Shown here: one piece after another, positions 5,288 to 22,492 of the stretch
Layout of the letters: each line of letters starts with the position of its first letter
How positions within the stretch are numbered: position 1 is the stretch's first letter
From: a virus
Length of the DNA stretch: 23,163 nucleotides
Reading direction: 5' to 3' (one strand)
Virus record (IMG/VR): IMGVR_UViG_3300009785_001876
Location: 1 to 23,163 of that record
Program-made: the position numbers and the translations under genes
Notes under the pieces: generated by a model
Databases searched by the model: none
What the model was told of the DNA's origin: nothing
The model's input: only the letters and a program-made list of their open reading frames with translations

Positions 5288-5316
5288 TGTACAATACAAT
5301 CTATTCCATATATAAT
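5288..5316 (+). promoter_or_regulatory. Candidate sigma-70-type promoter for gmd
   Basis: TGTACA (5288-5293, 4 of 6 matches to the -35 consensus) is followed by a 17-nt spacer and a perfect TATAAT (5311-5316). The predicted transcription start is about 5323, one base before the gmd ATG at 5324, leaving virtually no leader. It lies in the 82-nt gap between the SGNH gene and gmd, the largest gap in the glycan island. AT-richness makes a chance TATAAT likely, so this is a moderate call. Confidence 0.5.
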
Positions 5317-5323
5317 TATTATA

Positions 5324-9188: not shown

Positions 9189-9874
9189 CATTATCCACTT
9201 ACGAGGGCGAAGAAATAATTGCAAGTATTGTGATTAAGCAAGGTAAAAAATATTTTAACAAAGTGTGGATGCCAAGAACTGTTTTCAATGATCCACAAAA
9301 CAAAGACGCATATATTTTAGGCAACGGCGAATCAAGAAAAACATTTGATTTATATTCATTACCACAGGACACATATGGTTGCAATGCTCTGTACAGAAAT
9401 TATACACCAGACTTTTTGGTTTCTGTAGATAGAAAAATTTACAAAGAAATTATAGACAGCGAGTATGAACAAAATAATATTGTGTATACCAACCATAACA
9501 ATTTGACAAAGATTGGAGGCAATGCACATTTGATTCCAGCAAATCCACATCAAGGAGCAGGGCCTACAGCAATGCAAATTGCCATACATGATGGACATAC
9601 GAATTTGATATGCATCGGTTTTGACTGTGGCCGAGACGGCCCTAATAACAATGTGTACAAAGACACAAATGGTTATAACACGGCAGAAACAGTAGTGCAT
9701 CAAACTGTGTGGGCATCGCAAATACATGGTATCATGAAGGCCAATCCAAAGATTACATTCACCTTTGTAGAAGGCGATTTACCATCATATTTCTTTGATC
9801 TTGACAACTGTAAAGCAATATCATATACTGAATTAAGTACACACATAAATAATGGAAATGAGCAAACTACCTGA
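9185..9874 (+). CDS. DUF115/MptE-like protein
   Basis: Residues about 41-50 read DAYILGNGES, the glycine-rich start of the DUF115 (MptE/flagellar-accessory-like) Rossmann domain. This is followed by YGCNALYRNY, PDFLVSVD, and later GAGPTAMQIAIHDG and LICIGFDCG, which match the order of conserved segments in that family. DUF115 proteins are found beside polysaccharide, flagellin-glycan and pterin genes; some are motility-associated glycan factors and one archaeal member is a hydroxymethylpterin pyrophosphokinase. With glycosyltransferases around it, a role in sugar transfer is the more likely. Length is 229 aa with no membrane segment. It begins within the peroxiredoxin stop (ATGA) and its end overlaps the metalloprotease start by 23 nt. 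Confidence 0.6.
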   Translation: MTLSTYEGEEIIASIVIKQGKKYFNKVWMPRTVFNDPQNKDAYILGNGESRKTFDLYSLPQDTYGCNALYRNYTPDFLVSVDRKIYKEIIDSEYEQNNIVYTNHNNLTKIGGNAHLIPANPHQGAGPTAMQIAIHDGHTNLICIGFDCGRDGPNNNVYKDTNGYNTAETVVHQTVWASQIHGIMKANPKITFTFVEGDLPSYFFDLDNCKAISYTELSTHINNGNEQTT

Positions 9875-10234: not shown

Positions 10235-10263
10235 TTGACTTATCTTTGGTTATACCATATAAT
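10235..10263 (+). promoter_or_regulatory. Strong sigma-70 promoter
   Basis: TTGACT (10235-10240), a 17-nt spacer and a perfect TATAAT (10258-10263) form a near-consensus promoter. Predicted transcription start is about 10270, giving a leader of roughly 32 nt. The leader contains AAGAGG (10285-10290), 11 nt before the ATG at 10302. This is the one clear promoter in the window with a conventional leader and ribosome binding site. Confidence 0.8.
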
Positions 10264-10301
10264 ATAGATAATAAGAAACACAATAAGAGGTAACAACAAA
10301 A

Positions 10302-10643
10302 ATGACAACTAACGCACAAAAAGTATTAGAACTAATTAAAGACAAACTATGTGATCAAGGAACAACAACTTATCAAGGTAGATCAGGCACATACAAATAT
10401 GTAGAAGGTAGAACAACTTCTGAAGGCACAATCAACGGTGTGGTACAGAAACTTCATTCTGAAGGATATCTTAAAACTGCAGGTTCATTTAAAATTCTAG
10501 AAGATGGCACTGTGTTGAGATTTACAGGTATTGCTACAAAAACATCAAAAGCAATCACAAAAGAAATGCTAATGAATGCACAAACACAAGAAGATACTAC
10601 TGCAGAACTAAGCACTGATACACAAGAATCAATTGCAATCTAA
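10302..10643 (+). CDS. Unknown 113-aa protein, monocistronic
   Basis: I do not recognise this protein. The first 60 or so residues look like a small alpha/beta domain: an opening helix (TTNAQKVLELIKDKL) is followed by a glycine/threonine-rich section and by GTINGVVQKLHSEGYLKTAG. That last segment resembles the recognition helix and wing of a winged-helix DNA-binding domain. The C-terminal 25 residues are rich in Thr, Ser, Glu and Gln and probably disordered. It has its own strong promoter, a clear ribosome binding site (AAGAGG) and a hairpin about 45 nt after its stop. It thus looks like a separately and probably early, strongly expressed gene. A transcription-regulator role is a guess from shape only. 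Confidence 0.75.
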   Translation: MTTNAQKVLELIKDKLCDQGTTTYQGRSGTYKYVEGRTTSEGTINGVVQKLHSEGYLKTAGSFKILEDGTVLRFTGIATKTSKAITKEMLMNAQTQEDTTAELSTDTQESIAI

Positions 10644-10729: not shown

Positions 10730-12181
10730 TTGCCGCATTGTACAATACAGATTAAAGATGAGGTCAACGTCAAACTAGAAGGATTAGATCTTGTCACTAG
10801 ACGCAAACTAACAAACAAATTTAAATACGAGATTCCAGGTGCAAGATTTATGCCGGCTGTAAAGTTGGGCAGATGGGATGGCACTGTATCATTTTTTACA
10901 CAAGGTGGGTTAACCTATGTGAATCTGCTAGAAGACATTATGCCTATTCTAGAAGAAAACAATTACACATTTGATTTGCAAGACGAAAGAGAAGCATACA
11001 ATCTAACATTTGACAAAGTGAACACAGAAACATTTTCACATGTTGCTTGGCCGGCAGGACACAACAATGCTGGAGAACCAATTTCGTTACGTGATCATCA
11101 AGTTGAAGTAATTAATAATTTTTTAGACAATCCACAGTGTTTACAAGAAGTAGCCACAGCCGCTGGAAAAACTATTATCACTGCTGTACTCAGTAAACTG
11201 ATTGAACCATATGGTCGAAGCATTATAATTGTTCCAAACAAATCTTTAGTCACACAAACGCAAGAAGACTATGTTAACATGGGACTAGATGTTGGTGTAT
11301 ACTTTGGCGACAAAAAAGAAGTAGGACATACACACACCATTGCTACGTGGCAATCATTAAACATACTAGAAAAGAAAAGACTTAATGCAGAAGATGATCT
11401 CATAGAAGAATTTAAAAGAGATGTAGTTTGTGTAATAGTAGATGAAGTACACATGGCCAAGGCAGATGTATTGAGAAGACTGTTGACCAATGTATATGGT
11501 TATGTGCCAATTCGTTGGGGACTCACTGGTACAATACCAAAAGCAGAATATGAATTTAAATCATTACATGTCAGTTTAGGCAACGTTATCAATAAAGTGT
11601 CTGCTGTGGATTTGCAAGAAAAAGGATTGCTGGCCAATCTAAACATTGAGATCATGCAACTTAATGATTTTGTAGAATATAAAAACTACAGAGAAGAACA
11701 AACATATCTTGTAACCAAACAAGAAAGAATCAATTATATCGGCAGAATGGTTGAGCAAATGTCACAAAGCGGTAACACACTAGTGTTAGTTGACAGGATT
11801 AAGTCAGGCGAGTTGTTAACATCAGCAGTACCAGGAGCAACATTTGTGAGCGGTTCTATGAAAGCCAGTGATAGAAAAAACACATATGATGAAATTAAAG
11901 AAGGCGAAGGTAAAATAATTGTGGCCACATACGGTGTTGCGGCAGTAGGTATTAACCTGCCACGTATATTCAATCTTGTGCTATTAGAGCCTGGCAAGTC
12001 GTTTGTTAGAGTTATACAGAGCATAGGTAGAGGCATACGTAAAGCCAAAGACAAAGACTTTGTGCGAATATGGGACATATGCTCTACAGCAAAGTTTTCC
12101 AAAAGACATCTTACAGAACGTAAAAAGTTTTATCGTGAAGCAGAGTATCCGTTTACAATAACAAAGGTTGACTATCAATAG
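10730..12181 (+). CDS. uvsW: UvsW-type superfamily 2 DNA/RNA helicase
   Basis: T4 UvsW unwinds branched DNA and R-loops, and helps switch replication from origin- to recombination-driven. The N-terminal domain has the family block ARFMPAVKLGRWDG. Helicase motifs follow, numbered from this start: ATAAGKT (142-148, Walker A), DEVH (238-241, Walker B), GLTGT (motif III region, about 264-268) and QSIGRGIR (430-437, motif VI with arginine fingers). I set the start at TTG 10730 (483 aa) because GGAGG (10718-10722) lies exactly 7 nt before it. A longer frame opens at TTG 10691 but that codon is inside the hairpin stem and has no ribosome binding site. The gene's tail carries the -35 of the next promoter. 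Confidence 0.92.
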   Translation: MPHCTIQIKDEVNVKLEGLDLVTRRKLTNKFKYEIPGARFMPAVKLGRWDGTVSFFTQGGLTYVNLLEDIMPILEENNYTFDLQDEREAYNLTFDKVNTETFSHVAWPAGHNNAGEPISLRDHQVEVINNFLDNPQCLQEVATAAGKTIITAVLSKLIEPYGRSIIIVPNKSLVTQTQEDYVNMGLDVGVYFGDKKEVGHTHTIATWQSLNILEKKRLNAEDDLIEEFKRDVVCVIVDEVHMAKADVLRRLLTNVYGYVPIRWGLTGTIPKAEYEFKSLHVSLGNVINKVSAVDLQEKGLLANLNIEIMQLNDFVEYKNYREEQTYLVTKQERINYIGRMVEQMSQSGNTLVLVDRIKSGELLTSAVPGATFVSGSMKASDRKNTYDEIKEGEGKIIVATYGVAAVGINLPRIFNLVLLEPGKSFVRVIQSIGRGIRKAKDKDFVRIWDICSTAKFSKRHLTERKKFYREAEYPFTITKVDYQ

Positions 12182-12197
12182 ATAATCCACATATAAT
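12168..12197 (+). promoter_or_regulatory. Sigma-70-type promoter giving a predicted leaderless mRNA
   Basis: TTGACT (12168-12173, within the last codons of uvsW), an 18-nt spacer and a perfect TATAAT (12192-12197). A start 7 nt after the -10 falls at 12204, exactly on the A of the next gene's ATG. No Shine-Dalgarno is visible in between. Confidence 0.7.
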
Positions 12198-12203
12198 AAA
12201 GTA

Positions 12204-12713
12204 ATGCAACTGCTTACTTTAGAAAACAAATCCTACTTGATGGATCGTGTACCCGACAAGGTTGATGACGACTTACGTTTCTCGGTCTTGGATAATTCGG
12301 ACATAACAAATCCAGATTTTTTCTTTGTGCCTTTGATATACCTTGAATCGTTTTCTTCTCCTTCTGCTGTGCTAGAGATAGGAGAAAACAAAATTCAAAT
12401 GCCATTAGATTGGCACATACTGTTGGGTGATCCAGAGTGTGGTGATTTAGAAATTGTGCCATTAACATCATTGAATGATAGATCATATCATGCTTTCTGT
12501 TTCAACCCACTGTCTGACTCGATGCCAAGATATCAAGAAGTCAGAATCACAAACATATACAACGAAGTTGATTGGTTCTTTCCTAGAGTAAAATCCAACC
12601 AATTGATCACAATTCCCACATCATCAAAAACTAAACCTGAATGTGCTTTTTTTATAAAAGAAATAAATCGAAACACTGACATGGTTATGCTCAATAATCT
12701 GTTTCATGCTTAA
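12204..12713 (+). CDS. Unknown 169-aa protein
   Basis: I do not recognise this protein. It appears to be a soluble, beta-rich, acidic single domain. It is aromatic-rich in several patches (NPDFFFVPLIYLESF near 36-50, NEVDWFFPRV near 120-129) and ends with a hydrophobic MVMLNNLF segment. There is no signal peptide, membrane segment or known motif, although some stretches look like a small jelly-roll or SH3-like fold. It begins directly at the predicted transcription start of the 12168 promoter and has no ribosome binding site. Its end overlaps kdsA by 8 nt, so the two are co-expressed. Presence between uvsW and kdsA gives no functional clue. Confidence 0.75.
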   Translation: MQLLTLENKSYLMDRVPDKVDDDLRFSVLDNSDITNPDFFFVPLIYLESFSSPSAVLEIGENKIQMPLDWHILLGDPECGDLEIVPLTSLNDRSYHAFCFNPLSDSMPRYQEVRITNIYNEVDWFFPRVKSNQLITIPTSSKTKPECAFFIKEINRNTDMVMLNNLFHA

Positions 12714-13536
12714 TTTTAAATTCACAAATGCTGGCCCATTGAAAATAATTGCAGGACCATGTCAAATAGAATCAAGAGATCATGCAATGAAGATGGCAGA
12801 AATCATTGCAAACATCTGTCACGAAGAAGGCATGCGTTGGGTTTTCAAATCATCTTTTGATAAAGCCAATAGATCTTCTGCACAAGGACCACGCGGAGTA
12901 GGCATAAAAGAAGGATTAAAAATATTACAAGAAGTAAAAGACCAATTCCAATGCGGTATATTGACAGACATACATCTTCCCAATCAAGCCAAACCTGTAA
13001 GTGCAGTGGCAGACATCATACAGATTCCTGCATTTTTGTGTAGACAAACTGATCTAATTGTGTCAGCATCTAAGACAGGCAAGATTGTAAATGTAAAAAA
13101 AGGTCAATTTTTATCTTACACAGACGTGGACAACATTGTGCAAAAAGTATTAAGCACTGGCAACAAAGAATGTATGATTACAGAACGTGGTACCAGTTTT
13201 GGTTATGGCAACTTGGTTGTCGACATGCGTGGTATTGCCTACATGAAACAAAAATTAAATCCTAAGAGTGCTATCACTACACCTATTGTATTTGATGGCA
13301 CACACTCAGTGCAACAACCAGGAGGCCTTGGCACATCTTCCGGTGGTGATAGGAGCATGGTGGAACCATTGTGTTTGTCTGCTGTGGCTCAAGGTATATC
13401 TGCTGTATTTTTAGAAGTTCATAATGATCCTGACAATGCCCCATCAGATGGGCCTAACATGCTGTATCCAGAAGATTTCCAAAAACTAATACACAAATTA
13501 AAAATACTAGACGCCACTGTAAAACAGAAGTTATAA
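12706..13536 (+). CDS. kdsA: 3-deoxy-D-manno-octulosonate 8-phosphate synthase (metal-dependent class)
   Basis: Condenses phosphoenolpyruvate with arabinose 5-phosphate to Kdo-8-phosphate, the first committed step to Kdo of lipopolysaccharide and some capsules. Signature blocks are all present: IAGPCQIES (about 15-23), FKSSFDKANRSS (47-58), TDIHLP, FLCRQTDL, VKKGQFLS, TERG.SFGYGNLVVDMR and the late FLEVHNDPDNAPSDGPN segment. C19, H200, E237 and D248 fall at the four metal-ligand positions of the metal-dependent class (spacing agrees with the Aquifex enzyme as I recall it). The metal-independent class has Asn in place of the Cys. At 276 aa it is full length and looks intact. It overlaps the previous gene by 8 nt. 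No other Kdo-pathway gene (kdsB, kdsC, kdsD) is in the window. Confidence 0.94.
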   Translation: MLNFKFTNAGPLKIIAGPCQIESRDHAMKMAEIIANICHEEGMRWVFKSSFDKANRSSAQGPRGVGIKEGLKILQEVKDQFQCGILTDIHLPNQAKPVSAVADIIQIPAFLCRQTDLIVSASKTGKIVNVKKGQFLSYTDVDNIVQKVLSTGNKECMITERGTSFGYGNLVVDMRGIAYMKQKLNPKSAITTPIVFDGTHSVQQPGGLGTSSGGDRSMVEPLCLSAVAQGISAVFLEVHNDPDNAPSDGPNMLYPEDFQKLIHKLKILDATVKQKL

Positions 13537-13537
13537 T
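13508..13537 (+). promoter_or_regulatory. Candidate sigma-70-type promoter giving a predicted leaderless mRNA
   Basis: TAGACG (13508-13513, 4 of 6 matches), an 18-nt spacer and a perfect TATAAT (13532-13537), lying in the last codons of kdsA. A start 7 nt after the -10 falls at 13544, exactly on the A of the next ATG. The -35 is weak, so this is less sure than the similar sites at 12168, 18107 and 21048. Confidence 0.5.
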
Positions 13538-13543
13538 AAACAT

Positions 13544-14041
13544 ATGGCCGCTAAGTTTCTCGATATAAAAGCAATGATGGGTGCAGTTGACAGACGCGAC
13601 AAAGCGTGGTACAGTAGACTATCAGAAGAGGATAAAAAATTGTATTCGCCATATATGACAATGCGATGGTCAGCATCTGCAGAAGACAAAAGATTGCAGG
13701 CAGAAGAACCAGACCTACATCGAAACATACAAGAGTATTACGTGCAAGAAGTGAATGAAAACGTTAACAAACATCACTGGACTTTATCAAAAAATCATAA
13801 AGGATTGTTGTGGCATTTGAATGCAATGTGTGGCTCAACCTATGCTGGAATATTTCATCTGTGGATCCCTAGCAAAAAGAAAACAACTACAAAAACCAAA
13901 ACAAAAGATAAAAAATCAAAAATGCAACAACTACAAGATCTATTTCCAAATGCAAAACAAAAAGATTTAGAAGTGTTAGATGCAACTATGTCTACTAAAG
14001 AATTTACAGAGTTAAAATTACAGTATGGCATCGACAAATAA
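13544..14041 (+). CDS. 62: Probable clamp-loader small subunit (T4 gp62-like)
   Basis: T4 gp62 joins gp44 to load the sliding clamp. This 165-aa protein fits the marine T4-like version of gp62 in layout. Near residues 33-39 is YSPYMTMR, like the YxPFxVNR block. It is followed by QEVNENVNKHHW (compare the ANEMN block), then a leucine-rich LLWHLNAM helix, a basic WIPSKKK segment, and a C-terminal part (KQKDLEVLDATMSTKEFTELK) in the position of the family's tail helices. A lysine/threonine-rich linker (about 110-125) looks disordered. The homology is remote and judged from memory of the family pattern. gp44 and the clamp gp45 are not next to it. The start coincides with a predicted transcription start. 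Confidence 0.55.
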   Translation: MAAKFLDIKAMMGAVDRRDKAWYSRLSEEDKKLYSPYMTMRWSASAEDKRLQAEEPDLHRNIQEYYVQEVNENVNKHHWTLSKNHKGLLWHLNAMCGSTYAGIFHLWIPSKKKTTTKTKTKDKKSKMQQLQDLFPNAKQKDLEVLDATMSTKEFTELKLQYGIDK

Positions 14042-14228
14042 ACCAGAGTGTCCTAAGTGTGAATCTTTCTTAGGTGATAATGGCAGATGTAAAAACTGCG
14101 AAACATTAGAACTATTTGCTGAAGGATTAAAAATATCAAGAGCACAGAAAAAAGAGAAACTTGAATTAGAATGGGACGTTGAACCAACTAATAAACCCGG
14201 CGGAGTAGGCAGAAGAAAACTTGATTAA
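14025..14228 (+). CDS. Small zinc-ribbon-like protein
   Basis: A 67-aa protein with two CxxC knuckles, CPKC (about 9-12) and CKNC (about 22-25), separated by a 9-residue loop rich in Gly and Asp. This is a compact zinc-ribbon likely to bind one zinc ion. A basic/acidic helix follows (ISRAQKKEKLELEWD) and a glycine-rich basic tail (GGVGRRK). Such miniature zinc-ribbons in phages usually contact nucleic acid or a polymerase. It starts inside the preceding gene (17-nt overlap), and the next reading frame begins before its stop, so it is part of one operon. Specific function unknown. Confidence 0.7.
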   Translation: MASTNKPECPKCESFLGDNGRCKNCETLELFAEGLKISRAQKKEKLELEWDVEPTNKPGGVGRRKLD

Positions 14229-14256
14229 CCAAGCAACGGCTGTTAAAATAGATATA

Positions 14257-14931
14257 ATGCCAACATGTGAATACTGTAACAAATCATTTTCTAAACAAAG
14301 TACTCTCGAAGTTCATATGTGTGAGCCAAAAAGACGATGGAGCCAAAAAAACAACAAAGTTCATGTGTTAGCATTTGAAATCTTTAGACGTTTTTATGAA
14401 ATAAATTACAACAATCAAAAGCCTAAAACATATACAGACTTTGTTCAGTCACAATACTATAAAGCATTTGTTAAGACAGCAACCTTTATCACAAGCAACA
14501 CACCTATCGAAATTGGAGCATTCATAGACTGGCTTTGCACATCGAACATAAGAATAGACTCGTGGGCCAAACAAGGCACAATAGACACATATCTAAAACA
14601 TTTGATTCGTACAGAACCCGTACCACAAGCACTTAACAGAACTATAATGACCATGGGTGTTTGGGCAGAACAAGAAGACGCAAGACTTGAAGATTTTTTT
14701 AAATACGTAAATTTAAACAGAGTGTGTCAGATGATTGTAAATGGTAGAATATCTCCGTGGGTGTTATTGAATTGCGAGACAGGCAAGGATCTAATTACTG
14801 TGATGCATGATGATCATATAAAAATGATATTTGAAGTAATTGATCCAGAATGGTGGAAGCGTACATTTAAAAAACGTGATGAGGATTTAGATTTTGTTAG
14901 AAATACTTTACGTGAAGCAGGCATAGAATGA
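14257..14931 (+). CDS. Unknown protein with N-terminal C2HC zinc finger
   Basis: The protein starts with a zinc finger: C4, C7, H20 and C22 (CEYC, then VHMC), with the usual F11 and L17 core residues. This resembles a classical C2H2 finger with the last histidine replaced by cysteine at very short spacing. About 200 residues follow in an alpha-helical domain with many aromatic residues (IFRRFYEINY, YKAFVKTATF, WLLNCE-like and WWKRTF segments) that I do not recognise. The start is placed at ATG 14257 (224 aa), where the finger begins. The frame opens at TTG 14221, but those 12 residues have no ribosome binding site and overlap the previous gene. DNA or RNA binding is likely from the finger. 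It lies between gp62-like and DnaE-like genes. Confidence 0.75.
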   Translation: MPTCEYCNKSFSKQSTLEVHMCEPKRRWSQKNNKVHVLAFEIFRRFYEINYNNQKPKTYTDFVQSQYYKAFVKTATFITSNTPIEIGAFIDWLCTSNIRIDSWAKQGTIDTYLKHLIRTEPVPQALNRTIMTMGVWAEQEDARLEDFFKYVNLNRVCQMIVNGRISPWVLLNCETGKDLITVMHDDHIKMIFEVIDPEWWKRTFKKRDEDLDFVRNTLREAGIE

Positions 14932-14944
14932 TAGGAATATTAAA

Positions 14945-15505
14945 ATGGATATAGATATCGACTTTGCAGATAGACAGAAAATACTAGACAAGTTGCCGCA
15001 CGTCAAAGCAACCATTAATGATCATAATGGCCTTAAGTCACACAACACAGGCGTATACTTTACAGATGCTCCTACCATCCCAGACACCAACCAATGCTCA
15101 CTAGATTATCAAGTAGCAGACGAACTTGGTTACTTTAAATTAGACTTGCTCAACGTAAACATATATTCACAGGTAACATCGAGAAAACATTTGCAAGAAC
15201 TTTTTGATAAAGAACCCCCATGGCATAAATTACAAAACAAAGATTTTGTTGATCAATTATTTCATTTGAATAACCATTTTGATGTTGTTTCAAAACTACA
15301 ACCTACTAATTTAGAACAACTTGCATCTTGCTTGGCTATTATTCGTCCAGCCAAACGATATCTGTTAAACATGGGTTGGGAGGAAATACTAAAGCAAGTA
15401 TGGGTGAAACCAACTGATGATCAATATTTTTTTAAGAAGGCACATTCATTTTCATATGCAGGCGCAGTTGCAGTGCATATGAACTTAATCGACTCGACGA
15501 ATTAA
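14945..15505 (+). CDS. Miniature DnaE-like (family C DNA polymerase core) protein
   Basis: Only 186 aa, against roughly 1,100 for bacterial DnaE, yet it shows the DnaE motifs in the same order. DIDIDFADR at the very start matches the PDxDxDF block, so D4 and D6 align with two catalytic aspartates. HNTGVYF (33-39) matches the HAGGVVI region. LGYFKLDLLNVNIY (61-74) matches the LxxVKFDFLGL block, so D67 aligns with the third. LQPTNLEQLASCLAIIRP (118-135) matches the PxxFEDLxALxALYRP block. FFKKAHSFSYA (162-172) matches FNKSHSAAYA. The PHP domain, GRGSAAGS block, most of the thumb and fingers, and the beta- and tau-binding regions are absent. AGGA (14933-14936) precedes the ATG by 8 nt. Its tail overlaps the antisense gene by 21 nt. 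Catalysis is doubtful. Confidence 0.6.
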   Translation: MDIDIDFADRQKILDKLPHVKATINDHNGLKSHNTGVYFTDAPTIPDTNQCSLDYQVADELGYFKLDLLNVNIYSQVTSRKHLQELFDKEPPWHKLQNKDFVDQLFHLNNHFDVVSKLQPTNLEQLASCLAIIRPAKRYLLNMGWEEILKQVWVKPTDDQYFFKKAHSFSYAGAVAVHMNLIDSTN

Positions 15506-15859
15506 TTGAACAGTTTTTCGACGTATTCGTTTAGAAGAAGTAAGATCACTAAGTTGTACAATTGGTCCAAATACTATTGTGACTTCTTTGACAGCAAATG
15601 AAACTAGATAAGGCCTAAACACTCTGAAACTGTCGCCGATGAATATATTAATAGGTAGTTTCCTGTTTGATTCCCACCACCAAGTCTTACCGTTTTCTAA
15701 GAACAATGTTCGTAACTGATGCGGTATTGCATCATAATTGTATATGCTAATAACCCTTGGATCACAGTTTTGACAAATGCCTAAATATTCTTCTTTACCT
15801 ACCTTAATAAGCGTTAAGAACGGGTGATTTGATTGAATATTTTCTAGATCAATGGTCAT
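15485..15859 (-). CDS. Unknown 124-aa protein on the opposite strand
   Basis: I do not recognise this protein. It is one of only two minus-strand genes in the window. It has a beta-rich look, with a CQNCDPRVISIYNYD segment (two cysteines spaced CxxC), a tryptophan cluster TWWWESNRK (about residues 59-67) and a hydrophobic stretch FRPYLVSFAVKEVTIVFGP. The basic C-terminus (SSKRIRRKTVQLIRR) could bind nucleic acid. Its last 21 nt overlap the end of the DnaE-like gene, tail to tail. Upstream lies a TATAAT on the minus strand (15880 down to 15875), which would start transcription near 15868, only about 9 nt before the ATG. The complete frame, no better reading frame opposite and its own -10 box support it as a real gene. 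Confidence 0.7.
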   Translation of the reverse strand: MTIDLENIQSNHPFLTLIKVGKEEYLGICQNCDPRVISIYNYDAIPHQLRTLFLENGKTWWWESNRKLPINIFIGDSFRVFRPYLVSFAVKEVTIVFGPIVQLSDLTSSKRIRRKTVQLIRRVD

Positions 15860-15871
15860 TTCGTTGTAGTT

Positions 15872-15905
15872 ACCATTATATTTTTTCTATCGTTGGTATA
15901 ATGGT
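15872..15905. promoter_or_regulatory. Inverted repeat carrying divergent -10 boxes
   Basis: ACCATTATA (15872-15880) and TATAATGGT (15897-15905) are a perfect 9-bp inverted repeat with a 16-nt spacer. Each arm contains a TATAAT, one facing the minus-strand gene (15875-15880) and one facing the structural gene (15897-15902). No convincing -35 box is seen for either. The symmetry suggests either two mirror-image promoters or a dimeric regulator site. Confidence 0.5.
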
Positions 15906-15907
15906 TA

Positions 15908-15915
15908 TATAAATA
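15908..15915 (+). promoter_or_regulatory. T4-type late promoter motif
   Basis: An exact TATAAATA, the octamer recognised by the T4-type late sigma factor gp55 with the clamp as activator, lies at 15908-15915. The expected start is about 15921-15922, only 5-6 nt before the ATG at 15927. The downstream gene looks like a virion protein, which fits late expression. I noticed no second exact copy in the window. AT-rich DNA makes a chance hit possible. Confidence 0.6.
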
Positions 15916-15926
15916 TTAAAAATGCT

Positions 15927-16730
15927 ATGCAGTATCAAACAGGATATAACCTTACAAATCTTATAGATGTGTTTGTTCACACCTCGGGTACTGAGAGAAG
16001 AGTCGAAAAAGTGTACGAGAGAACTATAAAATTATATAAAGAATTCGACAACAAGTTCACTGTGGTGGTAAAAAACCAAGACCAAAAGAAACAAGTTGTG
16101 GATGGTGCATCATGCGAACTGCAAATATCTGATGATAGCAATAATCTTGTTATTACAGTTGCAGGTGTTGTATCAGATGACGGTAGCACTGTTGCTACCA
16201 AAGGACAAATAGAGTTTACTATTACAGAATCTAATATGCTACAGTTAGATGGTCGATACTATCACGGCGTGTTGAGATTTACCGATACCGATTCAACAGT
16301 CAAACCACTGTATGCTGACACAAGATATGGTGCCGCTTTGAACTTTGAAGTCATGAATGATGCTGGTCCAGAGTTTACAGCGTCAGAACTTGTTACATCT
16401 TTTACATTTGTAGGTGACGAACATGTGTCATCAACAATAGATGCGGAGCCAAATAAAAATTCAAATTCAGCATTGCACACTGCTGTGTACTATCTCACAA
16501 ACTTTACAGGTTCAATAAAAGTTATGGGCACAATGAGTGAAGGTGCGTCATATGGTACTGACTCACAACAATCTGAATTTTTCCAAATAGATAGACAGAC
16601 ATACGATGATGTTAGCACACCTCAGTATGTAAACTTTACTGGAGTTTTTAAACGAGTAGCATTTGTGATTACACTGTCTGATTCCTCAACTATATTAACC
16701 GGTGTTGATAAAATCTTGTATAGAGTTTAG
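15927..16730 (+). CDS. Probable virion structural protein
   Basis: A 267-aa, beta-rich, Thr/Ser/Asp/Val-rich protein with the look of a phage structural or fibre-associated protein. Short strands alternate with turns (VVDGASCELQISDDS, GVVSDDGSTVATKG, GRYYHGVLRFTDTDS). It has only one cysteine and no membrane segment or signal peptide. The first 150 residues resemble a baseplate/receptor-binding N-terminal domain (extended beta, ending NDAGPEF) and the rest a second beta domain ending GVDKILYRV. I cannot name a family. The exact TATAAATA late-promoter motif just upstream supports late, virion-type expression. There is no ribosome binding site; the leader would be only a few nt. Its stop overlaps the next gene's GTG start by one base. 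Confidence 0.65.
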   Translation: MQYQTGYNLTNLIDVFVHTSGTERRVEKVYERTIKLYKEFDNKFTVVVKNQDQKKQVVDGASCELQISDDSNNLVITVAGVVSDDGSTVATKGQIEFTITESNMLQLDGRYYHGVLRFTDTDSTVKPLYADTRYGAALNFEVMNDAGPEFTASELVTSFTFVGDEHVSSTIDAEPNKNSNSALHTAVYYLTNFTGSIKVMGTMSEGASYGTDSQQSEFFQIDRQTYDDVSTPQYVNFTGVFKRVAFVITLSDSSTILTGVDKILYRV

Positions 16731-17716
16731 TGGCTTGCGACATCTTACATTGGCTAGGGCCTGAGGTTGCTATACCTTACGATACATGCAATGAAGACTT
16801 CTTGTACTCTTGTCGTGTGCCCGTAGAACTCCTGCATCAATTACAAAAAAACAATAAAAAAATTTTAGCATTGATCGACTTTTGTTGTCGTCCTATACCC
16901 AAAGACATTGATTGGCATCAATATGATTTAGTAGTTGGTATTCTGTTTGAAGAACTGATAAGTCCATCTGATGTGCATTCTTTCATTGAATACATGAATA
17001 CAAAACAATATCCGTTAGAACAGATAGGTTGCATCACTTACAAAAGTTTAACTCACAAAGACATACCAATTAGTTTTCAATTGCAGTTGCCATACGAAGA
17101 CAGATATCGATACATGTTGGATTTTCAAGTTGATAATCGTCAAGCCAAATATGATTGGTTATGTCTAATAGGACAGCCTCACTTACACAGAATAAATGTT
17201 GTGCAAGACATTAGGCATCATGAAAATATTTTAAAATCATTTGCATCACATTTAGATGAAGATGATCCTGCACTACAAGGAGAGAAACCAATCAAGATAG
17301 ATCAAGGAAGAAGTCATTGCACACATCCTAGCAACATTGAATTGTATAATCAATGCCGAGCAGAACTAGTAGTAGAGACTGCATATTGGGATTGTGATTA
17401 TAGTCCATGGCTCACAGAAAAAACATGGAGAGCTGTGTTATACGGTATGCCGTTTGTGGTTGTTGGTCAAAAACACACTTTGAAATATCTACATTCTTTA
17501 GGCTTCAAAACATATTCTGATCTATGGAGTGAAGATTATGATAATCTAAATGATCAACAAAGATGGTCTGCCATTTTAGAATTAATCAACCAACCACTTG
17601 CAATTGATCCGGAAGTTGTAGAACAAATTTTGTTACACAACCTACAAAACTATGTTACAATAACTAACAACATGGAAGCACAAAGAATTCAAACTTTGTG
17701 GAACACAATAAAATGA
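16730..17716 (+). CDS. GT10-like (fucosyltransferase-type) glycosyltransferase
   Basis: A 328-aa protein. Its C-terminal half carries the GT-B pattern of alpha-1,3-fucosyltransferase-like enzymes: ELVVETAYW (E216), then WLTEKTWRAVLYGMPFVVVG (about 227-246) with E230, K231 and G239, then LHSLGFKTYSDL. The E-K pair in the TEK motif is typical for binding a GDP-sugar donor. The N-terminal half is divergent, with a histidine-rich middle (QPHLHRINVVQDIRHHENI). The gmd gene in this window makes a GDP-6-deoxysugar, a plausible donor class, but the link is inference. The GTG start shares one base with the preceding stop, which couples it to the structural gene. That placement suggests glycosylation of virion proteins or of the receptor glycan. 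Confidence 0.65.
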   Translation: MACDILHWLGPEVAIPYDTCNEDFLYSCRVPVELLHQLQKNNKKILALIDFCCRPIPKDIDWHQYDLVVGILFEELISPSDVHSFIEYMNTKQYPLEQIGCITYKSLTHKDIPISFQLQLPYEDRYRYMLDFQVDNRQAKYDWLCLIGQPHLHRINVVQDIRHHENILKSFASHLDEDDPALQGEKPIKIDQGRSHCTHPSNIELYNQCRAELVVETAYWDCDYSPWLTEKTWRAVLYGMPFVVVGQKHTLKYLHSLGFKTYSDLWSEDYDNLNDQQRWSAILELINQPLAIDPEVVEQILLHNLQNYVTITNNMEAQRIQTLWNTIK

Positions 17717-18126
17717 TGTATGCATCTGTATTTTTACTATTAATCATAAAACATTGTATCTGCGATTATGGTATTCAAGGAAGATTTGATCCTAAAGCAA
17801 CAAAAGATACATGGCTGTCTTCTAGACTATGGTTACATGGGTTTGATCATGCAGTGGGGACCGCAATGGTTTTTGCTGTGTTCTGTGTGTGGTTATCTTT
17901 TGCTATTCCAAATTCTAATGCACTGATGTATCTGTCTATTGTTATTTTTGCTTTCAGTGACCTTGTGATACACAGCATGATTGATTGTGTAAAAAACAAA
18001 GTAATACACGGCAACGGATATAACAGCAGTCAAAGAATTTTTTGGTGGATTAACATGTTTGATCAAATTGCACACAATGTAACCTATTTTATTTTCCTAT
18101 GGTGCTTTGACAAATACTTTTTTTAA
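17713..18126 (+). CDS. Small integral membrane protein, DUF3307-like
   Basis: A 137-aa protein with about four hydrophobic segments (VFLLLIIKHCICDYG; GTAMVFAVFCVWLSF; LMYLSIVIFAFSDLVIHSMI; VTYFIFLWCF). It has a histidine/aspartate pattern: H14 with D18, H42 with H46, H87 with D91, and D117 with H121. Paired HxxxD/HxxxH residues within or at the edges of membrane helices are the mark of the DUF3307 family as I know it, and suggest a metal-binding membrane enzyme. The start is placed at ATG 17713 (a second ATG follows at 17716), overlapping the previous stop. A GTG at 17698 is in frame but has no support. It acts in the host inner membrane. The end holds the -35 and spacer of the primase promoter. 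Confidence 0.6.
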   Translation: MMYASVFLLLIIKHCICDYGIQGRFDPKATKDTWLSSRLWLHGFDHAVGTAMVFAVFCVWLSFAIPNSNALMYLSIVIFAFSDLVIHSMIDCVKNKVIHGNGYNSSQRIFWWINMFDQIAHNVTYFIFLWCFDKYFF

Positions 18127-18134
18127 GTTATAAT
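18107..18134 (+). promoter_or_regulatory. Consensus sigma-70 promoter for primase, predicted leaderless
   Basis: TTGACA (18107-18112, perfect -35, within the last codons of the membrane protein gene), a 16-nt spacer and a perfect TATAAT (18129-18134). The predicted transcription start is about 18141, 2 nt before the primase ATG at 18143. No Shine-Dalgarno is possible. Both hexamers are perfect, so chance is a poor explanation. Confidence 0.8.
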
Positions 18135-18142
18135 AGTTTTAT

Positions 18143-19090
18143 ATGTTTCCTGAACTTAAACAGACAGTCGAATCACATCTGCCTGCTCGTAGGAAGAAAA
18201 CACCGTCGGGTTGGATATCTTTCAATGCACCATGCTGTGTTAACCAAGGAGAAAGTGCCGACACTCGACAAAGAGGCGGAGTCATATATCCAGGCGACGG
18301 ATCTATAAACTATCACTGTTTTAACTGTGGTTTTAAAGCCAACTATACCCCAGGTAGATATTTGAATACTAGATTCCGTAAACTGTTAGGTTGGCTGAAT
18401 GTATCAAGCAGTATCATTGGAAAATTGAGTATGCAGGCAATTGCACTGTCACAAGAAGTAAATCCGGAACAAAAGAAACTAGATGATGAAATAAAATTTG
18501 ACACAATTAGATTACCAACAGATGCTGAACCTATTCGTACTAATCCATACCTTATTGAACGTGGTATTATAGACGTGCCGCATACTCTGTATGAAGCACC
18601 CAGGTCTATGAAGGACAGAGTAATTGTGCCTATAAAATGGCAGGGCAAGTTGATCGGGTATGTGGCCAGAGCAATGACAGACATCTCACCCAAATACTTT
18701 GCACAAGTACAACCTGGCACACTGTTCAACCTAGACAATCAACACTGGTCTAGAAAATTTGTGATACTGGTAGAAGGTATATTTGATGCTATACAGATAG
18801 ATGGTGTTGCTATACTAGGGTCTGAAATAGCACACAAACAAAAATTACAAATAGATGCATTAAACAGAAAAGTTATTGTTGTGCCCGATAGAGATCGTGC
18901 TGGCACTAAACTTATTGATCAAGTAAGTGAATGGGGATGGTCAGTGTCTATGCCTCCATGGGAACCTAATATAAAAGATGTAAATGATGCTGTGATTAAA
19001 TACGGAAAGATACTGACCATTCAGGCAATACTCAAGTACACACATGACTCGAAAGCAAAAATAAAAGTAAATGAGAAACTATGGCTTTAA
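18143..19090 (+). CDS. 61: T4 gp61-type DNA primase
   Basis: Makes RNA primers for lagging-strand synthesis together with the gp41-type helicase at the end of this region. The N-terminal zinc site is formed by C31/C32 and CFNCG (C59, C62). The residues between (TRQRGGVIYPGDGS) match the family loop before the second knuckle. The TOPRIM domain shows VILVEGIFDA (E211) and VPDRDRAG (D249, D251), the acidic metal ligands. PWEPNIKDVNDAV follows, the conserved end block that also occurs in T4 gp61. Length (315 aa) is slightly shorter than T4 (about 340). The ATG sits 2 nt after a predicted transcription start and begins the protein at the expected point before the zinc site. Its end overlaps the nuclease-like gene by 10 nt. 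Confidence 0.93.
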   Translation: MFPELKQTVESHLPARRKKTPSGWISFNAPCCVNQGESADTRQRGGVIYPGDGSINYHCFNCGFKANYTPGRYLNTRFRKLLGWLNVSSSIIGKLSMQAIALSQEVNPEQKKLDDEIKFDTIRLPTDAEPIRTNPYLIERGIIDVPHTLYEAPRSMKDRVIVPIKWQGKLIGYVARAMTDISPKYFAQVQPGTLFNLDNQHWSRKFVILVEGIFDAIQIDGVAILGSEIAHKQKLQIDALNRKVIVVPDRDRAGTKLIDQVSEWGWSVSMPPWEPNIKDVNDAVIKYGKILTIQAILKYTHDSKAKIKVNEKLWL

Positions 19091-19668
19091 CTGTAGAACA
19101 TAGACAACGGTTGATCGAAGGACTAAAAGCGTTTGCAGAGTTTAGAAAACAGACTGGCATTAATGCGTTAGACAACTACGGATATAGAGAAGCATTACAA
19201 ATACTAGAACTAAGAGCATTACTACCGTCAATAGATAAAGTGCCTGGCCGTACTGGCGCTGATGCTAAAGCAGAAGATCAAGGCTACACAAACATAGAAT
19301 TAAAAAGTAATCACTTTGAAAAAAACAAACTTACAATTAGCAATTGGCCGTGTGCAATGTTCGACATGAGTAAAAAAGGTGGCAAAGAAAAATTATACAA
19401 GTTCGAAGGCTTTGGACATGGCCTGTTTAATTCAATTGAACTCACATTAGTTGCCAGTTACTTTATTAAGAAAGAACACATGTATAAAATGCACCCTCTG
19501 TTTGATAAAAAAATTGCACAGTATGAACTATTCAAAGAAAGCAAAGAAACATTACGCGAAGCAATTGAAATATCTTTACAAGAAGTAATAGAACATGTGG
19601 ATCCAGATGATATTGTGTTTTTTAAAAATGGTCAAATAGTAACAATTAGAGAGGAAGGCGAAATATAG
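19081..19668 (+). CDS. PD-(D/E)XK nuclease-like protein
   Basis: A 195-aa protein with a candidate PD-(D/E)XK endonuclease core. GRTGADAKAEDQGYTNIELKS places D61 on one strand and E73-L-K75 on the next, the layout seen in type II restriction endonucleases. A helical N-terminal part (QRLIEGLKAFAEFRKQTG) precedes it. ISNWPCAMFDMSKK and a FGHGLFNSIELTLVASYF segment follow and could complete the fold. The 10-nt overlap with primase and its direct abutment to the oxygenase gene put it in the replication operon, so it may process phage or host DNA during replication. I do not recognise a named family; the nuclease call rests on the motif. An adenine methyltransferase two genes downstream might protect phage DNA from it. 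Confidence 0.5.
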   Translation: MALTVEHRQRLIEGLKAFAEFRKQTGINALDNYGYREALQILELRALLPSIDKVPGRTGADAKAEDQGYTNIELKSNHFEKNKLTISNWPCAMFDMSKKGGKEKLYKFEGFGHGLFNSIELTLVASYFIKKEHMYKMHPLFDKKIAQYELFKESKETLREAIEISLQEVIEHVDPDDIVFFKNGQIVTIREEGEI

Positions 19669-20226
19669 ATGGAAATAAATCTAACTAACAAAACAGTTTT
19701 TAAAGACAGTGTACACATGTTTAGAGATGCAGTAGATCCTATAGTTGCACAAAAGATACTTTTACAATTGGGTATAGATTATTCTTTGAAGCACTTCGAG
19801 CCTAAACAAAAATTAGACAGTGATATTTTTACATATAACTTTGAACAACTCATGACACTGAATAACGATATAAAAACGTATGTGTACAGTGATGACTTTC
19901 ATAAGTTGGTGTCTGAGCAAACAGGCATTGAGGTGTCAAAGACTCTGAGTTGTTGGGCAAGTGCTTACAGTAAAGGACACTATCTTACTCCACACACTGA
20001 TGCAATAAAAGATAGAAAAGTAGCCTACATATTCTATTTCAATGCAGAATGGCGACCACACTGGGGTGGTAACATTGCATTCGAGAAAGATGATCACTGG
20101 ATTATGATTCCTCCCATGCACGGAAGCATGATGCTGTTTGATGTGAGAGATAGTAAAAACAGACACATGGTTACTCCTGTGTGGTCAGATGAAACTAGAT
20201 ATGCAATTACAGGGTGGCTTGTTTGA
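19669..20226 (+). CDS. 2-oxoglutarate/Fe(II)-dependent dioxygenase (prolyl-4-hydroxylase-like)
   Basis: The iron site is clear: HTD (H109 and D111) within GHYLTPHTDA, and H166 in KNRHMVTPV. R177 in DETRYAITGW fits the residue that binds 2-oxoglutarate. The double-stranded beta-helix strands are visible (VAYIFYFN, GGNIAFE, GSMMLFDV). Length (185 aa) is usual for the P4Hc type. Such enzymes are frequent in marine T4-like phages and hydroxylate proteins or other substrates; the target here is unknown. It starts directly after the nuclease-like gene, with no gap, and ends 14 nt before dam. The neighbours make a DNA-related target possible, but the fold points rather to the prolyl-hydroxylase branch. 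Confidence 0.85.
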   Translation: MEINLTNKTVFKDSVHMFRDAVDPIVAQKILLQLGIDYSLKHFEPKQKLDSDIFTYNFEQLMTLNNDIKTYVYSDDFHKLVSEQTGIEVSKTLSCWASAYSKGHYLTPHTDAIKDRKVAYIFYFNAEWRPHWGGNIAFEKDDHWIMIPPMHGSMMLFDVRDSKNRHMVTPVWSDETRYAITGWLV

Positions 20227-20240
20227 TCAAACCATTTAAA

Positions 20241-21080
20241 ATGAGAGTAAAAACGCCGTTGAGATATCCTGGAGGGAAATCAAGAGCAATAAAGTTTTTA
20301 GATACACATTTGCCTAAAAATAGATTTGCCAGATACTGTGAACCTTTCCTAGGTGGTGGATCAATGGCATTACATATCACACAGAAACATCCTGATGTTG
20401 ATGTTTGGGTTAATGATGCACACTGGCCTCTATATGCTTTTTGGCATCAATTAAAATGCAGAGGTGAAGAGTTGGCCGTGGAACTGGAAGAGATAAAATA
20501 CCAAACCATGGCCTATCCCGACGCTCAACGAGAATTGTTTAAAAAAGCCAAACAGGGGTTAGAGTCTGATGATGAATATGAAGCAGGCAAAAACTTTTTT
20601 ATAGTTAACAAGTGTGGCTTTAGTGGGTTGGCATCTACGTTTTCGCAACAAGCATATGATGGCAACTTCACACTAAACAATATAAGAAAGTTACGTGGAG
20701 TTATTCCTATTATAAAAGATTGGGTCATTACCAATTATGATTACAAAGATGTTTGTTTTGGTGTCTGGGGCAACCCTGATTACGGAGATCAATTCACATT
20801 CTTAGATCCCCCATATGACATCAAATCATTTCTGTATGGCAAAGATGGTAATTGGCATCGAGGATTTGATCATGCACAATTTCATGAACAGGTTAAAAAA
20901 ATCGAAGGCGATTGGATGATCACATATAATTCTAATCCAAACATTTTAACCCTATGGGATGCATTTACATTATTAGAATGGGACCTAACATATACTATGA
21001 GATCTACAGGTACATACCGCGACGATCAAAAGAAAAGAAAAGAACTATTGATAACCAATTACAAAAGTGATATAATATAA
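20241..21080 (+). CDS. dam: D12-class DNA adenine N6-methyltransferase (Dam)
   Basis: Transfers a methyl group from SAM to adenine N6 in DNA, probably at GATC, as for most Dam enzymes of this class. The class-alpha order is present: LRYPGGKS (7-14), the SAM motif EPFLGGGSMAL (34-44), a VNDAHWPLYAF segment, KCGFSGL, and catalytic FLDPPYD with DPPY at 189-192. Length is about 279 aa, typical. The start is placed at ATG 20241. A GTG at 20214 is in frame but would add 9 residues and overlap the oxygenase gene. There is no ribosome binding site before either. The last part of the gene contains the -35 and most of the promoter for the helicase. It may protect phage DNA from host or phage nucleases, or regulate packaging or replication. 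Confidence 0.9.
   Translation: MRVKTPLRYPGGKSRAIKFLDTHLPKNRFARYCEPFLGGGSMALHITQKHPDVDVWVNDAHWPLYAFWHQLKCRGEELAVELEEIKYQTMAYPDAQRELFKKAKQGLESDDEYEAGKNFFIVNKCGFSGLASTFSQQAYDGNFTLNNIRKLRGVIPIIKDWVITNYDYKDVCFGVWGNPDYGDQFTFLDPPYDIKSFLYGKDGNWHRGFDHAQFHEQVKKIEGDWMITYNSNPNILTLWDAFTLLEWDLTYTMRSTGTYRDDQKKRKELLITNYKSDII
21048..21076 (+). promoter_or_regulatory. Sigma-70 promoter for gp41-type helicase, predicted leaderless
   Basis: TTGATA (21048-21053, 5 of 6 matches), a 17-nt spacer and a perfect TATAAT (21071-21076), inside the end of dam. A start 7 nt after the -10 is 21083, exactly the G of the helicase GTG start codon. Confidence 0.75.
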
Positions 21081-21082
21081 AA

Positions 21083-22492
21083 GTGCAACAGTATACAACA
21101 GAATTACAGAAATTATTTTTAGAAATGTTTCTAGCAGATGCTGAGTCATTTGTCAGAGCACAAAACATATTTAGATATTCACACTATGATGCATCTTTGA
21201 GAGATGTGGCCAAGTTTGTGCATGATTATGCACAAGAGTACAAAACACTGCCTGATGTTGAAATTGTTAATGCAAAAACTGGTGGACAACTGCAATCGGC
21301 TGCCGACATTGATCCAAAACACTTTGATTGGTTTCTTGACGAGTATGAAAGTTTTGCTAGACACAAGGAATTAGAATCTGCCATACTTGCATCTGCAGAC
21401 TTGCTGGAGAAGGGCGACTATGGCCCAGTAGAGAAGTTAATCAAGGATGCAGTGCAAATTGGTCTAACCAAGGACCTGGGTATTGATTACTTCGCTGATC
21501 CTAAAGCAAGATTGCAGGCTCTCAAAGACAACAATGGTGTAATGCCAACTGGCTGGAAAAACTTTGATAAGAAGTTGTTCGGAGGATTCAACAGAGGCGA
21601 ACTTAACATTTTTGCAGGAGGATCAGGTGCAGGTAAGAGTTTGTTCTTGCAGAATCTTGCAGTGAACTATGCTGAACAGGGCATGAACTGTGTTTACATA
21701 ACACTAGAGTTAAGTGAGAATTTGACTGCGATGAGAATGGATGCTATGATGACTGATACTCCGGCCCGAGACATATTCAAAGACCTAGACACAGTTGACC
21801 TAAAAATAAAGATGAAAGCAAAGACCTTGGGCAAAGTTAGAATCAAATATATTCCAAGTGGCGCAACTGCTGTTGATGTTAGATCATACATTAAAGAGTT
21901 TGAAATACAACATGGCATAAAGTGTGATGTGGTGCTGGTTGATTATCTAGACTTACTGATGCCGATGAATAAAAAAGTATCGCCAAGTGATCTATTTGTG
22001 AAAGACAAGTATGTGTCTGAAGAATTGAGAAACTTAGCAGTTGACTTGAATGCAATATTGATCACAGCATCACAGTTGAACAGAGCCAGTGTTGAAGAAA
22101 TAGAATTTGATCATTCGCACATCTCAGGCGGACTATCTAAGATACAAACAGCAGACATTGTGATTGGTATCTTTACATCTCGAGCAATGAGAGAGCGTGG
22201 CAAGTATCAGATACAGTTCATGAAAACAAGATCCAGTTCTGGTGTTGGTCACAAAGTAGACCTAGAGTTTAATGTGGACACACTGAGAATACTCGATGTG
22301 GCCGAGGAAGAAGAGCATCAATCATTTAAGAAACAATCGTCTTCTATATACAGCAATCTAAAAAGAACATCCACAGTAACAGAAGAACCAAAAGAAGAAC
22401 ACAAAGCCAGTGGTGACGACATAGGCAAAGTAAAAGCCAACGTTGAATCAAGCAAGATAAAAGAGCTTATCCGTAATCTAAATAAAAAATAG
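21083..22492 (+). CDS. 41: T4 gp41-type replicative DNA helicase (DnaB/RecA fold)
   Basis: Hexameric 5'-3' helicase of the replisome, the partner of the gp61 primase encoded 2 kb upstream. The N-terminal helical domain (first 130 residues) is followed by the RecA core. Walker A is GGSGAGKS (179-186), and LEL with E209 is the likely catalytic glutamate. Walker B is VVLVDYLDLL (about 283-292), and ILITASQLNRAS (Q331) is the DnaB H4-like motif. A linker with GWKNFDKKLFGGFNRGEL is typical of DnaB-type helicases. The C-terminal 60 residues are charged and probably disordered. Length (469 aa) matches T4 gp41 (about 475). It starts at GTG 21083, at the predicted transcription start. It ends 1 nt before the convergent sulfotransferase gene. 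Confidence 0.93.
   Translation: MQQYTTELQKLFLEMFLADAESFVRAQNIFRYSHYDASLRDVAKFVHDYAQEYKTLPDVEIVNAKTGGQLQSAADIDPKHFDWFLDEYESFARHKELESAILASADLLEKGDYGPVEKLIKDAVQIGLTKDLGIDYFADPKARLQALKDNNGVMPTGWKNFDKKLFGGFNRGELNIFAGGSGAGKSLFLQNLAVNYAEQGMNCVYITLELSENLTAMRMDAMMTDTPARDIFKDLDTVDLKIKMKAKTLGKVRIKYIPSGATAVDVRSYIKEFEIQHGIKCDVVLVDYLDLLMPMNKKVSPSDLFVKDKYVSEELRNLAVDLNAILITASQLNRASVEEIEFDHSHISGGLSKIQTADIVIGIFTSRAMRERGKYQIQFMKTRSSSGVGHKVDLEFNVDTLRILDVAEEEEHQSFKKQSSSIYSNLKRTSTVTEEPKEEHKASGDDIGKVKANVESSKIKELIRNLNKK

Follow-up and report, generated by a model that had tools for sequence, protein, structure and literature searches.

What does it mean when the promoters of a virus end directly against its start codons? 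The question is raised by the IMG/VR virus record IMGVR_UViG_3300009785_001876, of which a 23 kilobase (kb) stretch of 23,163 nucleotides (nt), referred to here as the window, carries five TATAAT boxes a few nt upstream of genes. PHROGs matches in the window include a DnaB-like helicase, a primase, a DNA polymerase family, and a DNA helicase that we take to be UvsW-like. We consider it highly probable that the window represents a marine phage lineage in which two promoter types are fused to start codons, with leaderless initiation following from this placement. The lineage is distant kin of PA5oct and Phosso within the T4 superfamily.

The five sites all lie on the plus strand. TTGACT (12168-12173)-N18-TATAAT (12192-12197)-N6-ATG (12204) spans 12168-12206 and would form a leaderless-placed sigma-70-like promoter for a gene of 169 amino acids (phrog_11279, function unknown). 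TAGACG (13508-13513, weak)-N18-TATAAT (13532-13537)-N6-ATG (13544) spans 13508-13546, and its -10 box overlaps the stop codon of the upstream DAHP/KdsA-family gene. TTGACA (18107-18112)-N16-TATAAT (18129-18134)-N8-ATG (18143), at 18107-18145, is the predicted promoter of the DNA primase and matches the consensus at 12 of 12 positions. TTGATA (21048-21053)-N17-TATAAT (21071-21076)-N6-GTG (21083), at 21048-21085, is that of the DnaB-like (gp41-type) helicase, and TGTACA (5288-5293, weak)-N17-TATAAT (5311-5316)-N7-ATG (5324), at 5288-5326, precedes a nucleotide-sugar epimerase. Three of the five sites match the consensus at 11-12 of 12 positions and the other two at 10 of 12. With gaps of 6, 6, 8, 6, and 7 nt (the gap being throughout the number of nt between the end of a motif and the start codon), initiation 7 nt past the -10 box would hit the start codon or fall 1-2 nt before it. 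A preliminary description of this DNA had given the coordinates of all five boxes and start codons correctly. It was also right in assigning strong -35 boxes to three of them (TTGACT, spacer 18; TTGACA, 16; TTGATA, 17), in placing four -35 boxes (12168, 13508, 18107, and 21048) within the preceding open reading frames (ORFs), and in finding no Shine-Dalgarno (SD) sequence: by eye, AGGA, GGAG, and GAGG are absent from the 20 nt upstream at all five sites (0/5). Its gene names fared less evenly, as PHROGs bears out the primase and helicase, but “probable gp62” for gene 13544 is without support, the gene matching only phrog_11758 (function unknown) and no Pfam family.

We retrieved 80 IMG/VR loci related to the window (identity 46-100%) and read the larger marine contigs G001-G005 (391 kb), together with the near-copy G006 and two more distant contigs, G011 and G014. 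The marine contigs are A/T-rich, with a guanine plus cytosine (GC) fraction of 0.36-0.39. For the window we used 31 hand-chosen starts (29 on the plus and 2 on the minus strand), with 5324 and 21083 taken as in the preliminary description. Our own ORF caller relies on codon usage, prefers the most upstream ATG, and ignores upstream motifs, so that GTG starts are missed; starts less than 70 or 80 nt from a record end, ORFs of fewer than 40 codons, and low-scoring ORFs were dropped. The ORF list of the window gives 5267 in place of 5324, and relatives back both 5324 and 21083, through a G004 start called independently at gap 6 and through the comparison of helicase orthologues.

Promoter-like matches of a generic kind are no more frequent in the window than expected by chance (56 against 49.0±7.5, and 45 against 43.0±7.1). 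The -10-to-start spacing, in contrast, withstands comparison with shuffled sequence: TATAAT at gap 5-8 precedes 5 of the 31 window starts, far above chance, with a maximum of 2 in 1000 whole-window dinucleotide shuffles (935 of which gave none) and a maximum of 3 in circular shifts over the 29 plus-strand starts. Our own caller, which took other starts for 5324 and 21083, found it at 3 of 28. The larger contigs G001-G005 show TATAAT at gap 5-8 before 31 of 430 called starts (200 per-gene shuffles, 2.94±1.50, maximum 8) and ATAAATA, a motif of the T4 late type, at gap 4-8 before 29 of 430 (shuffles, 1.86±1.33, maximum 6). When 6-mers were scanned without guidance over the 458 upstream regions of G000-G005, three kinds of motif emerged: ATAAAT/TAAATA at gap 4-8, TATAAT at gap 6-8 together with TTGACA at 28-30, and SD (AGGAGA) at 4-6. 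When every protein family is counted once (182 families in G000-G005, G006 being excluded as nearly identical to the window), each of the two promoter motifs at gap 5-8 marks 19 families, and from gap 12 on a 4-nt bin holds 1-5 families for TATAAT and 0-2 for ATAAATA.

The -35 boxes separate the two motifs. A best -35 match of at least 5/6 accompanies 20 of 34 near-start TATAAT boxes, 6 of 24 far ones, 17 of 458 random positions, and none of the 29 late ATAAATA sites. Across 14 records we counted the exact string TTGACA-N16-18-TATAAT 35 times and backward controls twice, and in the marine contigs TTGAC occurs 29 times at gap 29-33 and at most 9 times in every other 5-nt bin. In G001-G005, 22 of 66 promoters matching at least 11 of 12 positions lie at gap 4-9; the corresponding figure for eight phage comparators (HTVC008M, Syn9, P-SSM4, PA5oct, G014, G011, T4, and Phosso) is 5 of 214.

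Orthologous upstream regions were compared where the match began within 25 residues and 45 nt of upstream sequence were available, and upstreams identical over 30 nt were merged. The helicase retains TATAAT in 26 of 27 distinct upstreams, at gap 6 (21), 7 (4), or 9 (1), while the -35 region and the surroundings vary. For the primase, 15 of the 22 distinct upstreams have exact TATAAT at gap 5-8, and the other seven have TATACT at gap 6-7 (by eye). Gene 12204 has TATAAT at gap 6-8 in 7/7 and gene 13544 at gap 5-7 in 8/11. The epimerase at 5324 has it at gap 6-7 in 2/3, and the third upstream belongs to a protein of 27% identity that is probably not an orthologue. Together, the statistics and this conservation strongly support leaderless placement as a prediction.

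The preliminary description had seen in these sites a “leaderless early transcript class”. The leaderless placement stands, but the restriction to early genes does not, since the late-type ATAAATA is placed alike; the “early” label, which came from gene names alone, is too narrow. A PHROGs scan of representatives covered 15 of the 19 TATAAT families and 17 of the 19 ATAAATA families. The former include a gp55-like late sigma, the primase, a DNA helicase, an SbcD-like nuclease, a deoxynucleoside monophosphate kinase, a DNA polymerase family, the nucleotide-sugar epimerase, a methyltransferase, a radical SAM protein, and five families of no known function; the window helicase, whose GTG start the caller overlooked, belongs here too. 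Nine of the latter are tail, head, or connector families (tail tube, tail, tail-fibre, virion structural, baseplate hub, and head-tail adaptor), so that all nine families whose category is known belong to the virion or tail. The gp55-like sigma (phrog_234) was found in G001 and G002, and in G001 its own gene lies downstream of a start-adjacent TATAAT with a weak -35 box. SD-like strings are less frequent at motif-adjacent genes (5/63, against 90/395 of the others; Fisher p 0.007), occurring at 3 of 34 near-start TATAAT sites and 2 of 29 ATAAATA sites.

The same two motifs were counted in other genomes, as the number at gap 4-8 over the number at gap 0-60; coverage was 400 of 469 kb for Phosso and 340 of 376 kb for one SAR11 contig. 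For ATAAATA and TATAAT, respectively, the marine contigs G001-G005 give 29/49 and 31/75, HTVC008M 11/23 and 2/22, Mosig 7/31 and 1/20, Melnitz 2/25 and 1/20, G014 9/51 and 2/33, G011 1/4 and 0/7, PA5oct 1/34 and 2/53, Phosso 0/36 and 0/8, phiM12 0/5 and 1/8, Cr30 0/1 and 1/4, Syn9 0/17 and 0/10, P-SSM4 2/26 and 0/18, T4 0/23 and 0/24, and the SAR11 contig 4/21 and 6/30. T4 late genes are leadered and a gap of 24-28 is expected for them; the T4 late motif indeed peaks there, which serves as a check of the method. In PA5oct, Phosso, T4, and the cyanophages the gap is mostly 19-38 nt. Thus, of the sets examined, the marine group alone shows a TATAAT peak next to the start, and start-adjacent late motifs are partly common to SAR11 phages and G014. 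Absence or rarity in most comparators is in this way observed directly, as are the motifs, their spacing, their excess over shuffles, the -35 coupling, and the conservation at the best-covered sites. That the promoters of the closest cultured relatives are mostly leadered suggests that the layout belongs to this lineage.

We suggest the following mechanism. Replication and regulatory genes, with some others, are preceded by a sigma-70-like promoter, TTGACA-N16-18-TATAAT. Virion and tail genes, again with some others, are preceded by the T4-type late motif ATAAATA, which a gp55-like sigma would recognise. As both end 4-8 nt before the start codon, RNA polymerase, using a sigma-70-like factor and later the gp55-like factor, would initiate on the codon or within about 2 nt of it. 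70S ribosomes would then initiate at the 5′-terminal AUG or GUG without an SD, a step that we draw from what is set out on leaderless mRNA in PMC9031893 and PMC3160421. The remaining genes would be read within operons or from leadered, SD-bearing transcripts. We infer the transcript ends, the use of host RNA polymerase or the gp55-like sigma, the timing, and leaderless translation from the DNA itself.

Several observations weigh against this interpretation. Two of the five window sites have weak -35 boxes, and 44 of the 66 strong promoters in G001-G005 lie outside gap 4-9 (the ATG-preferring calls miss GTG starts). The portal family is an exception in belonging to the TATAAT class (3/3 members), and of the 17 ATAAATA families scanned, 8 lack a match or match nothing of known function. 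The search of G001-G005 did not find the gp55-like sigma in G003-G005, possibly since these are fragments. Conservation is uneven: at least two members carry the exact motif in 5 of the 15 multi-member TATAAT families and in 8 of the 12 ATAAATA ones, the helicase upstream of locus L053 has no TATAAT, and three orthologues of gene 13544 have only degenerate boxes. Despite its predicted leaderless mRNA, the helicase begins with GTG in 23 of the 27 distinct upstreams; GUG is described as poor on leaderless mRNA in Escherichia coli and Caulobacter and efficient in some actinobacteria (PMC9031893), and the conserved GTG is odd for such an mRNA.

Might the boxes be translation enhancers, or an effect of base composition, and not promoters at all? 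The A/T-richness of the contigs speaks for this. However, per-gene dinucleotide shuffles fail to reproduce the boxes, a -35 box at 16-18 nt goes with TATAAT and not with ATAAATA, and T4, PA5oct, and G014, which are more A/T-rich (GC 0.32-0.35), lack a TATAAT peak at gap 4-8, so we regard the idea as very improbable. We give equally little credence to genome compaction alone having pushed promoters against start codons. The median same-strand spacing of G001-G005 (0-8.5 nt) is the lowest among 12 records measured, yet HTVC008M (12) and Syn9 (10.5) are nearly as compact and have no TATAAT peak at gap 4-8, 12 of the 17 Syn9 late motifs lie at gap 19-28, and the median intergenic gap is 27.5 for start-adjacent TATAAT genes against 12.5 for the rest. 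Compaction may have been a factor favouring the change.

A different reading accepts the promoters as real and has transcription begin a few nt away, or the true start codon lie further downstream, giving a short leader or an intragenic start. The gap among orthologues does range from 5 to 9, and the 5′ ends are those predicted from sequence. Conserved N-termini disagree with this reading: of the 80 loci, 67 have a helicase match starting at residue 1-4 and the remaining 13 a partial one, and L005 and L006 have ATG replacing GTG at equal distance; a leader of 1-3 nt would in any case probably be functionally near-leaderless. We therefore judge it improbable. It is also conceivable, though we think it unlikely, that a takeover strategy lies behind this, with leaderless translation adopted for sigma-70-type and late transcripts alike in this marine branch of the T4 superfamily. 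Phage mRNAs would then be translated by 70S ribosomes, or by ribosomes that the phage has modified, with no remaining preference for SD-led host mRNA, and the SAR11 phages would be partway there, with late genes only. We retain promoters fused to start codons, with leaderless initiation as their consequence, as the preferred explanation.

Three further plus-strand sites in the window illustrate the range of layouts. Late-type ATAAATA (9845-9851)-N6-ATG (9858), at 9845-9860, precedes a 120-amino-acid gene that is weakly SprT-like (E 5e-4, below the Pfam cut-off); the start, listed at 9852, was corrected to 9858 by comparison with relatives, and 4 of the 6 distinct orthologous upstreams have ATAAATA at the identical gap. 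Gene 10302 is a leadered counter-example, with TTGACT (10235-10240)-N17-TATAAT (10258-10263)-N38-ATG (10302) at 10235-10304 and an SD-like AAGAGG at 10285-10290; TATAAT lies at gap 30-38 in 6/6 distinct upstreams and GGTAACAAC precedes the start in 5/6. At 15908-15929, late-type TATAAATA (15908-15915)-N6-ATG (15922)-CT-ATG (15927) places an out-of-frame ATG, a predicted 5′-terminal upstream AUG, before the real start at 15927. In all 19 distinct upstreams, ATAAATA lies at gap 11-12 from the real ATG with the extra ATG 5 nt before it, so that the conserved layout is ATAAATA-N6/7-ATG-NN-ATG with the out-of-frame ATG in the leaderless position. The product of gene 15927 weakly matches the virion structural family phrog_14467 (E 3e-7). 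We rejected ATG 15922 as the start of a conserved small protein, as its frame closes after 14-35 codons and the peptides vary.

Attempts to assign a host were not successful. Between the promoters of genes 12204 and 13544 lies the DAHP-synthase/KdsA-family gene (PF00793; 12706-13536), whose best bacterial matches are about 54% identical; among the best 80 of at least 592 matches, the top ones are Alphaproteobacteria at 52-54%, with other phyla at 50-55%, and we rejected it as a host marker. The bS21 of G003 was rejected likewise, matching 19 of 20 hand-picked, mostly alphaproteobacterial genomes at 38-56% identity; of three Pelagibacteraceae, two matched at 43% and one not at all. SAR11 was set aside as a model: across 41 genomes of a single Pelagibacteraceae genus, exact TTGACA-N16-18-TATAAT was counted 11 times and its backward controls 45 times, so full-consensus promoters are not enriched there. 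The SAR11 contig (340 kb) has a modest TTGAC peak at gap 29-33, the leaderless position (8/340 starts). Among 14 records, bS21 occurs in G003, HTVC008M, and PA5oct. It was rejected as a switch, since PA5oct has bS21 yet is leadered, so its presence does not track the layout. The G003 gene (L094:18562-18762, minus strand; L012:4974-5174) has AGGAG before its GTG start and adjoins the orthologue of window gene 14221, and bS21 stands at that place in 2 of 34 spanning loci (L012 and L094, both from G003). Window gene 14221 (14221-14931) encodes a 236-residue protein with a C2H2 zinc-finger match just under the Pfam cut-off. With E. coli ribosomes in vitro, HTVC008M bS21 is reported to give about 5% of normal green fluorescent protein (PMC6375957), which would be compatible with, although not proof of, a leaderless preference.

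Leaderless genes and T4-type late promoters are each already known; the lineage-wide, two-class, start-adjacent layout appears to be new, as we found no paper describing it among titles and abstract openings of the open-licence literature. Leaderless mRNA would thus appear to be used across a whole phage lineage for two promoter classes, beyond single genes. A simple rule is gained by which the promoters of marine phages and their true start codons can be located, and leaderless initiation becomes testable in cultured SAR11 phages. Late-promoter prediction has been reported to fail in pelagimyophages (PMC7029224); that late motifs of HTVC008M and Mosig lie at the start codon may partly explain this.

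How does this layout compare with known systems? In bacteria, leaderless genes are described as being marked by a TA-like signal some 10-12 bp ahead of the start (Zheng et al. 2011, PMC3160421). Such TA-led genes resemble the marine phage genes in having a -10-like box at this distance and no SD; as described there, the phages differ in often having a good -35 box and in adding a second, late-type sigma motif. We rejected AR9 as a leaderless jumbo-phage precedent, as its mapped untranslated regions are given as 26-491 nt, although the same paper calls phage transcripts “often leaderless” (PMC5312081). The E. coli mRNAs with a 5′-terminal upstream AUG (Beck et al. 2016, PMC4965119) recall 15922/15927 in carrying an AUG at the mRNA 5′ end ahead of the real start; the cases described there carry a normal SD leader, whereas the phage ATGs are 5 nt apart, leaving no space for an SD. 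The nearest cultured relatives found, PA5oct and Phosso, share 54% and 47% identity with the window helicase, 50% and 53% with the G001 portal, and 45% and 41% with the G001 gp55-like sigma, respectively. They and other T4-superfamily jumbo phages differ in placing the late motif mainly at gap 19-38 and in their strong SD signals. The Pelagibacter phages HTVC008M and Mosig are alike in having a share of their late motifs at gap 4-8, but their TATAAT is not start-adjacent. Their late-type motifs form start-adjacent and more distant groups, and many distant ones in Mosig are accompanied by an SD-like string. T4-type late promoters (TATAAATA, gp55) share with the marine ones the ATAAATA core, the lack of a -35 box, a position before virion and tail genes (in nine of the 17 scanned marine families), and a phage-encoded gp55-like sigma; they depend on gp33 and the gp45 clamp. 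The T4 motif peaks 24-28 nt from the start, against 4-8 nt in the marine phages, where the SD-like string is rare.

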